NCBI GenBank assembly: GCA_030651895.1
Contig: JAUSBR010000006.1
Coordinates: 62,001-126,000, forward strand
Reading direction: 5' to 3'
DNA: 64,000 bases
From: Sideroxyarcus sp.
Lineage (GTDB): Bacteria > Pseudomonadota > Gammaproteobacteria > Burkholderiales > Gallionellaceae
Below the pieces are notes generated by a model, which ran no database searches, was not told where the DNA came from, and saw only the letters and a program-made list of their open reading frames with translations. This document shows positions 38,946-39,116 of this stretch, piece after piece. The translations under genes and the position numbers were made by a program. Positions within the stretch are counted from its first letter, which is position 1, and each line of letters opens with the position of its first letter.

Positions 38946-38962
38946 GGTTATTCCTAAAAAAT

Positions 38963-38992
38963 TTGAACCCTCTGGAACTATTTTCGCATAGT
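38963..38992 (+). promoter_or_regulatory. Predicted promoter of the engB-adjacent small RNA
   Basis: TTGAAC (38963-38968) and CATAGT (38987-38992) are 18 bases apart on the + strand, each matching consensus at 4/6 positions. This would start transcription at about 39000, divergent from hemB. Confidence 0.45.
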
Positions 38993-38999
38993 CCCGTCT

Positions 39000-39112
39000 G
39001 AACATCCGAGTAGCGAAAGCTGCTTCCCGTTTCTCCTCCCTGAGCGGGTGTCTTTACCCTGTAAAGACTTTATGCCCCTGACCTCCCCCTTTGGTTCAGG
39101 GGCGTTTTTTTT
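39000..39112 (+). ncRNA. Predicted small RNA between hemB and engB (Spot 42/ErsA-like position)
   Basis: The + strand here has no gene but ends in a strong Rho-independent terminator: stem GCCCCTGA (39074-39081) / TCAGGGGC (39096-39103), a CU-rich loop (ACCTCCCCCTTTGG region), then G and eight Ts (39105-39112). Upstream is a second perfect hairpin TCTTTAC-CCT-GTAAAGA (39051-39067). A third, CCCG (39026-39029) / CGGG (39045-39048), has a loop carrying TTTCTCCTCCC, complementary to ribosome-binding sites. With the predicted promoter the RNA would be about 113 nt. It runs convergently into engB, as spf (Spot 42) does in E. coli and ErsA does in Pseudomonas. The 5' end is inferred, and homology is not shown. 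Confidence 0.62.
39074..39112 (+). terminator. Strong + strand terminator of the predicted small RNA
   Basis: An 8-bp GC-rich stem followed by GTTTTTTTT. It lies convergent to the engB stop (39117) and cannot serve hemB or engB, which are both on the minus strand. This orphan terminator is the main evidence for the small RNA. Confidence 0.85.
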
Positions 39113-39116
39113 CCCA

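Follow-up and report, generated by a model that had tools for sequence, protein, structure and literature searches.

Introduction

The Rfam family anti-hemB (RF02837, Burkholderia RNA 7) is listed for B. pseudomallei (PMC3521395), and its B. cenocepacia member, ncS04, was described as a Northern-probed small RNA (sRNA) of 105 nt with a 3′ end confirmed by RACE (PMC5688073). ncS04 binds Hfq according to a study cited in that report, and Table 2 of the same report gives no significant response of ncS04 to any of its conditions (PMC5688073). ErsA lies in the polA-engB interval (PMC8575079), is driven by σ22 and represses algC and oprD (PMC8395346). sX13 is found at the polA locus and represses mRNAs bearing G-rich sites by means of C-rich loops, independently of Hfq; its authors pointed out that Spot 42 and alpha-r7 occupy the polA position too, found no similarity in sequence, and suggested divergent evolution with retention of structure, a question that they left open (PMC3771888). 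CU-rich anti-Shine-Dalgarno loops are also known in betaproteobacteria from the double-hairpin ‘toxic’ sRNAs ncS27/bdhR1 (RF02278) and the similar Bordetella S17 (PMC5688073, PMC11722255), which are different genes from the one considered here and multicopy in Burkholderia.

We analyzed a 64,000-nt stretch of DNA from Sideroxyarcus sp. (Gallionellaceae; hereafter the window), in which a preliminary description had predicted an sRNA on the + strand between hemB and engB. We consider it probable that this is a trans-acting anti-hemB/ncS04 orthologue of ~105 nt that would be induced by σE in envelope stress, would block ribosome-binding sites with its CU loops, and belongs to an engB-linked lineage that probably includes ErsA and sX13.

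An additional anti-hemB member between hemB and engB

RF02837 matched positions 39024-39112 (+) with 62.9 bits (E = 2.5e-12, cut-off 49.5, full model) and was the sole Rfam match above threshold in the whole window, while RF02278 reached 17.0 bits against a cut-off of 50. Our own model R1, which includes the window copy among its 40 rows, gave 77.1 bits at 39001-39109. From these matches and the fold we placed the sRNA at 39007..39112 on the + strand, with the 5′ end set by the promoter. This stretch folds at −45.1 kcal/mol compared with −24.5 ± 3.0 kcal/mol for 200 dinucleotide shuffles, none of which equaled it (z = −6.81). The window sRNA is real and belongs to the catalogued family anti-hemB, to which it adds a further member, because RF02837 scores above its cut-off and ncS04 had already been detected in Burkholderia cenocepacia. 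Sequence, structure, length, loop and the hemB-engB locus are common to the two RNAs. An RNA of about 113 nt had been proposed, and this figure has to be revised to ~105 nt, the length also reported for ncS04, because the conserved σE-type promoter sets the start near 39007.

The neighboring genes are hemB (delta-aminolevulinate dehydratase; 37944..38945, − strand, likely start codon at 38945), divergent from the sRNA, and the GTPase gene engB (yihA/ysxC; 39117..39710, − strand), convergent with it. Both are open reading frames that adjoin the sRNA in most relatives’ loci, and this arrangement is the one characteristic of RF02837. With only 62 nt to the hemB start, 4 nt to the engB stop and anti-hemB as the Rfam name, a cis-antisense or leader element for hemB or engB would be an obvious reading, yet it is a very improbable one: the transcript shares no positions with the hemB coding sequence, the CU loop also turns up in other settings (between polA and engB, or with neither hemB nor engB nearby), and second copies sit elsewhere in the genome. 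The other neighbor beside engB is often polA in gammaproteobacteria and hemB in most betaproteobacteria seen, so that ‘anti-hemB’ is the name of a neighbor and not of a target.

At E ≤ 0.001, RF02837 was found in 53 of 61 relatives (52 above cut-off) and, across the order, in 235 of 300 genomes (196 above cut-off), while 3 of 14 control genomes had matches, all below cut-off. A complementary set was gathered by loop pattern and comprises at least 120 stretches matching CCGYTTCTCCTCCCTGAGCGGG in named genomes. Among the 120 loci listed, 104 had hemB divergent and engB convergent, 6 had only hemB, 3 only engB and 7 neither; polA lay upstream in one, the engB-only locus L065. The nearest family-labeled locus among those listed was that of Gallionella sp. 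STC_117 (hemB 90.8% and engB 83.7% identical), and two loci labeled only Gammaproteobacteria (L137, L079) were nearer still. One stretch (L120, Nocardioides) comes from an actinobacterial record and consists of the loop hairpin, an exact 22-mer, with the rest of the sRNA missing; it is probably due to chance, and R1 has a 23-nt match of 23.5 bits there. Elsewhere in the window, an operon-like run at 34487-37899 includes an ECF sigma-like protein with a weak TIGR02939 match (23.3 bits). The run also encodes a FecR-like protein and what is probably an anti-sigma-like membrane protein, both named by eye from sequence.

Hairpins, loops and covariation

The fold of 39007-39112 has four hairpins, terminator included. 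The 5′ hairpin (39008..39025, +), seen in the fold, bears a GNRA-type loop (GCGAAAGC) and is absent from the Rfam model. The second hairpin (39026..39048, +; CCCGUUUCUCCUCCCUGAGCGGG) presents the anti-Shine-Dalgarno CU loop (CU stretch 39030-39041) and is nearly invariant in the alignment. The third (39050..39068, +; UCUUUACCCUGUAAAGA) is backed by fold and covariation, and the intrinsic terminator (39072..39112, +), apparent from sequence, fold and alignment, combines a second C-rich loop (CCUCCCCCU) with a run of eight Us. The preliminary description thus held for the GC-rich hairpin and the eight Ts after it (39105-39112) on the + strand, with hemB and engB both on the minus strand, and for the CU-rich loops; its two hairpins upstream of the terminator are also there, but the fold shows three.

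We aligned 50 diverse sequences, after 6 of 56 rows had been dropped beforehand (5 by a T-run rule, 1 as too long); L120, L131 and L146, which have no T run, were excluded from the set. Five helices with 24 pairs were recovered, and 88.4% of cells were paired compared with 80.9% in shuffles. Both sides changed in 15 of the 24 pairs, and the covariation score was 0.281 compared with 0.157 for shuffled and at most 0.094 for slid alignments. Hairpins and terminator are kept in relatives, so that the lack of conservation named beforehand as a refutation of the sRNA was not seen; an alignment of related intergenic regions, to look for conserved loops and covariation, had been suggested as a check.

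The 5′ hairpin, which the Rfam model lacks, covaried strongly: each of its 5 stem pairs, and 1 outer pair as well, changes on both sides, in 5 to 17 sequences per pair; we found no published description of it in a search that lay mostly outside subscription literature. The second hairpin had 99.1% of cells paired and 3 of 7 pairs invariant, an invariance that is inflated since part of the 50 sequences was gathered by an exact pattern within that hairpin. In the rows gathered by the Rfam model (L001-L030) the CU loop was likewise nearly unchanged. Near-invariance of this hairpin and its loop is as expected of a predicted pairing region, with the selection of rows accounting for part of it. In the third hairpin, both sides changed in 6 of 7 pairs and 75.1% of cells were paired.

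A σE/AlgU-type promoter in the window and the genus

Upstream of the sRNA, GGAACTA-N16-TCTGA (38974-39001) matches a σE/AlgU-type promoter, with the −35 element GGAACTA at 38974..38980 (+) and the −10 element TCTGA at 38997..39001 (+), each identified by motif match and conservation in the genus. GGAACT-N15-18-TCTGA has this single match in the window, where 0.07 would be expected. Of 22 same-genus copies, the window copy counted, 21 have GGAACT and the remaining one TGAACT, and all 22 have a −10 of the TCTGA/TCAGA/TCATA type downstream of the −35. GAACTATT lies 49-50 nt ahead of the Rfam match in 22 of 22 copies, in 21 of them as GGAACTATT; column counts of the copies were anchored on GAACTATT and alone show no jump in conservation.

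A σ70 promoter, TTGAAC-N18-CATAGT, had been proposed instead. Read in that way, the anti-hemB sRNA would have no link with envelope stress. Both hexamers do occur in the window, and Burkholderia copies have a TATATGATA element, with the 105-nt length of B. cenocepacia ncS04 setting its start 6 nt past TATGAT. However, only 2 of the 22 same-genus copies (those of the window and L017, nearly identical upstream) retain TTGAAC with at most one mismatch, compared with 21 for GGAACT, and a promoter scan found no σ70-like site at that place. We therefore rejected TTGAAC-N18-CATAGT as not conserved in the genus, and give σ70 control of this sRNA little credence.

The preferred σE-type promoter is also a trait that the window sRNA, by motif and conservation, has in common with ErsA and its σ22/σE promoter. 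RpoE (TIGR02939) was found above cut-off in 16 of 17 genomes; the exception was the window’s own genome, which is 73% complete. Upstream of rpoE itself, which might have served as a yardstick within the genus, no convincing motif was seen within 400 nt at 16 loci. A search of the literature, most subscription titles being beyond its reach, returned no published report of a σE-type promoter for anti-hemB. Another conserved promoter of the genus, GGAACTTT...TCTGA (L250:1006-1198; G000:C16:81605 onwards), lies ahead of a conserved membrane-like peptide of 36 aa (MKKAYEGVAKFVRW...) in four of four genomes and is perhaps a further σE target.

Promoter types across beta- and gammaproteobacteria

Upstream sequences were scored against the σE consensus GGAACTT-N14-17-TCTGA. 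Mean scores were 10.64 in 33 relatives (22 of the same genus, 1 of the same family and 10 of other families), compared with 7.78 in shuffles and 8.73 on the reverse strand, and 9.28 in the 120 loop-pattern loci listed, compared with 7.74 and 7.49. A strict σE motif was present in the main copies of 32 of the 33 relatives (5 of 1650 shuffles), in 34 of the 120 loci listed (29 of 6000 shuffles) and in 24 of 40 gammaproteobacterial copies (13 of 4000 shuffles), and on the reverse complement in none of these 33, 120 or 40. It was kept in 3 (L062, L063, L105) of the 7 listed loop-pattern loci with neither hemB nor engB; the motif therefore accompanies the sRNA rather than hemB.

The remaining loci of the 120 listed had GAAACTT (13), GAAACTT with TATATSATA (26), TATATSATA alone (16) or none of these types (31), and inspection by eye shows some of the last to be near misses, for instance in Thiobacillaceae. 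The σ70-like TATATSATA thus occurs in at least 42 of the 120 loci listed, every one of them from Burkholderiaceae; unlike the window sRNA, most Burkholderiaceae anti-hemB copies seen have it, and several lack a GGAACT/GAAACTT −35. The series in this family from GAAACTT through GAAACTT with TATATSATA to TATATSATA looks, from its sequence motifs, like a switch from σE to σ70, which agrees with the flat expression of ncS04. Among 20 further R1 loci listed, 7 had the strict σE motif, and 8 when the search window was widened. Because of the TATATSATA loci, the flat ncS04 and these 7 of 20 loci, the predicted σE control of the lineage is not universal.

Relation to ErsA, sX13 and Spot 42

The preliminary description had likened the position of the sRNA to that of Spot 42 and ErsA. 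As identities, both were rejected by the Rfam models, which gave the window sRNA 15.8 bits (Spot_42, cut-off 80) and 14.9 bits (ErsA, RF01719, cut-off 50), neither above threshold; the sX13 model (RF02232) likewise stayed below its cut-off of 50, with 17.5 bits. As a statement about position, the comparison went further than had been proposed, since homologues outside the order mostly adjoin polA and/or engB and the promoter is of the ErsA class; the window sRNA itself adjoins engB, in convergent orientation, as at the ErsA locus. In a class-level sample, the anti-hemB model matched 129 of 281 genomes, 17 of them above cut-off. Outside the order 126 genomes had matches, and from the best of these we took 40 regions, mostly one per family, whose label ‘gamma’ is inferred from the GTDB class. 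Flanks of ~1.5 kb held polA and/or engB in 34 of the 40 and neither in 6: polA upstream with engB convergent downstream in 13, plus 1 with the same arrangement and slight overlap, polA only in 9, engB only in 9 and the opposite orientation in 2.

ErsA (Pseudomon-1) shares with the family of the window sRNA polA upstream (L306), C-rich loops, a terminator and a σ22/σE-type promoter (TGAACTT-N17-TCATA in L306), while its sequence is strongly diverged. sX13 (RF02232, Xanthomonadaceae) shares polA upstream, in three of three true loci, and, from the literature, C-rich loops that act on G-rich sites; it differs in its promoter, which is not σE-like, in its reported independence of Hfq (PMC3771888), and in that engB was not found at the three true loci. 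Spot 42 (RF00021, E. coli and Vibrio) shares the polA-spf-yihA locus, the orientation convergent to yihA/engB and the terminator, whereas its second hairpin, by eye, lacks the CU loop.

The Rfam models overlapped in part. Of the 11 class-sample genomes matched by the ErsA model, 7 were matched at the exact anti-hemB place and 1 (G402) elsewhere; one more (G463), at 121 bits the sole match above cut-off, had no anti-hemB match, and for 2 the anti-hemB place was unlisted. The sX13 model matched 14 genomes, 3 coinciding with anti-hemB at listed places and 3 above cut-off with no anti-hemB match. Four tandem copies beside engB in one locus (L301) scored 36-42 bits with the anti-hemB model, 28-48 with sX13 and, for three copies, 20-37 with ErsA, all below cut-off, and in the same locus alpha-r14 reached 38.0 bits, alpha-r7 26.8 bits and Spot_42, at E 1.5, 23.1 bits. 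RF02837 had no match at E ≤ 5 in the ErsA, sX13 and Spot 42 loci, and RF00021 matched none of the 281 class-sample genomes, so that the sample holds no bridging genome to Spot 42.

We therefore turned to R1, which was built from 16 beta- and 24 gammaproteobacterial sequences and leaves out ErsA, sX13 and Spot 42, although some of its gamma rows match those models below cut-off. Its alignment (A2) consists of 16 of the 50 rows of the beta alignment and 24 of the 40 gamma rows, hand-picked for completeness, and it holds only 12 base pairs because MAFFT misaligns variable stems. Applied to ten loci with filters off, R1 gave sX13 29.9, 29.6 and 25.0 bits, ErsA 25.6 bits and Spot 42 12.3 bits (E = 0.012, spf), the ErsA and sX13 matches being at the right place and on the right strand; apart from the sRNA places read on their own strand, it scored nothing above 8.1 bits. 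Over 540 kb of beta loci it found 69 copies of at least 45 bits, the 23-nt match in L120 and one spurious match of 7.8 bits. A harder control consisted of seven loci that hold weak matches to the sX13 or RF02278 model: four C-rich places not known as members scored 18.3, 17.4, 15.1 and 14.0 bits, L326 and L329 at most 4.0 bits, and in L327 and L279 there were additional copies of 35-62 bits. ErsA and sX13 thus outscore the best C-rich control by 7 to 12 bits, and the score of Spot 42 falls within that background. R1 matched 160 of the 281 class genomes; 20 new places among the matches listed comprised 15 beside engB (10 with polA too) and 5 with neither gene, 3 of them from one genus, and all 5 had the strict σE motif.

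Gene position, structure and, in the case of ErsA, promoter together suggest that anti-hemB, ErsA and sX13 may descend from one ancient gene, a common ancestry for which we found no published claim in a search that covered little of the subscription literature. The alternative is convergence, in which the position at polA/engB and the C-rich loops arose separately and the three RNAs are unrelated. It would account for the separateness of the Rfam models and for the lack of sequence similarity of sX13 to Spot 42 or alpha-r7 stated in the sX13 paper (PMC3771888); the 12 base pairs of R1, its scores of up to 18.3 bits for other C-rich RNAs and the wide cross-matching of C-rich sRNA models also speak in its favor. 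It sits less well with the 25.6 bits for ErsA and 25.0-29.9 bits for sX13 from a model built without them, with the restriction of R1 to sRNAs in the 540 kb of beta loci (besides L120 and the 7.8-bit match), with the multiple below-cut-off affinities of the L301 copies, and with the coincidence of 7 of the 11 ErsA-model matches with anti-hemB matches. We judge convergence unlikely.

A fuller version of common descent is offered tentatively, as possible though not the expected outcome: the ancestor of beta- and gammaproteobacteria would have had an engB-side sRNA, driven by σE and with an anti-Shine-Dalgarno loop, of which anti-hemB, ErsA and sX13 would be direct descendants and Spot 42 the descendant in Enterobacteria and Vibrio, rewired to a different control and deprived of the loop, and the σE promoter would have been swapped repeatedly for a σ70-like one. 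Were this single-ancestor reading true, the sRNA would be a non-coding branch of the envelope stress response dating back to that ancestor. If the RNAs form one lineage, Rfam families that are now separate may be united, the little-studied anti-hemB becomes a testable counterpart of ErsA, envelope-stress control is predicted for many betaproteobacteria, and the lineage offers a natural series of promoter switches, one of them between sibling copies in this genus.

Cross-matches, all below cut-off, extended to C-rich families of alphaproteobacteria. At permissive settings mmgR (RF00519) matched window positions 39018-39119 with 32.6 bits (E = 4e-5, cut-off 41), and the alpha-r14 and Atu_C7 models scored sX13 at up to 32.8 and 33.6 bits (L319; cross-matches below cut-off in L317 and L319). 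These matches could reflect either wider kinship or a common C-rich make-up.

Predicted action and targets

In the proposed mechanism, the sRNA would be an independently transcribed, trans-acting RNA of ~105 nt, orthologous to Burkholderia anti-hemB/ncS04 and part of a lineage, linked to engB and widespread in beta- and gammaproteobacteria, to which ErsA and sX13 probably belong. By analogy with ErsA, its σE promoter (RpoE/AlgU-like ECF) would switch it on in envelope stress. The CU loop, and probably also the C-rich loop of the terminator, would then pair with GGAGG ribosome-binding sites and block translation, and Hfq probably takes part, judging from ncS04 and ErsA.

Complements of 10 loop bases were found 2-9 nt ahead of an ATG at 17 places in 12 of 17 genomes. 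The places in the window’s own genome (G000) and in G013 were rejected as targets, being complements of second sRNA copies themselves; those in G006, G015 and G017 precede a recurring 14-codon frame, and further ones precede genes that we take to be nuoA-like, acyl-CoA-synthetase-like and CYTH/CHAD-like. Across the 17 genomes, perfect loop complements ahead of ATG gave no convincing conserved target.

Second and tandem copies

The window’s own genome has a second copy (G000:C1:45411-45501; L031:1912-2002) that scores 46.0 bits with RF02837, below cut-off. It is flanked by a cold-shock gene on one side and an ankyrin-repeat gene on the other; its CU loop is unchanged, but its promoter reads TTGACA...TATTCT, while siblings of this copy in further species of the genus have promoters of the GGAACT type. 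Among the loci fetched, a second copy was judged convincing in 14 of 34 same-genus genomes. By eye, 8 of these 14 have promoters of the GGAACT...ATCT type and 6 have TTGACA...TATTCT, which looks, to judge by the motifs, to be derived from the GGAACT type. A cold-shock gene adjoins 4 of the 6 TTGACA...TATTCT copies, the one in the window’s genome among them.

About four copies or more are arrayed in tandem in each of L301 (beside engB), G553:C8 and G541:C3. Three loci (L268, L269, L271) have short copies that seem to be without the third hairpin, with a second copy nearby in two of the three, and partly match RF02278 (31.0, 28.7 and 24.9 bits, below cut-off); they hint at a possible origin of the double-hairpin ‘toxic’ sRNAs from the anti-hemB lineage.
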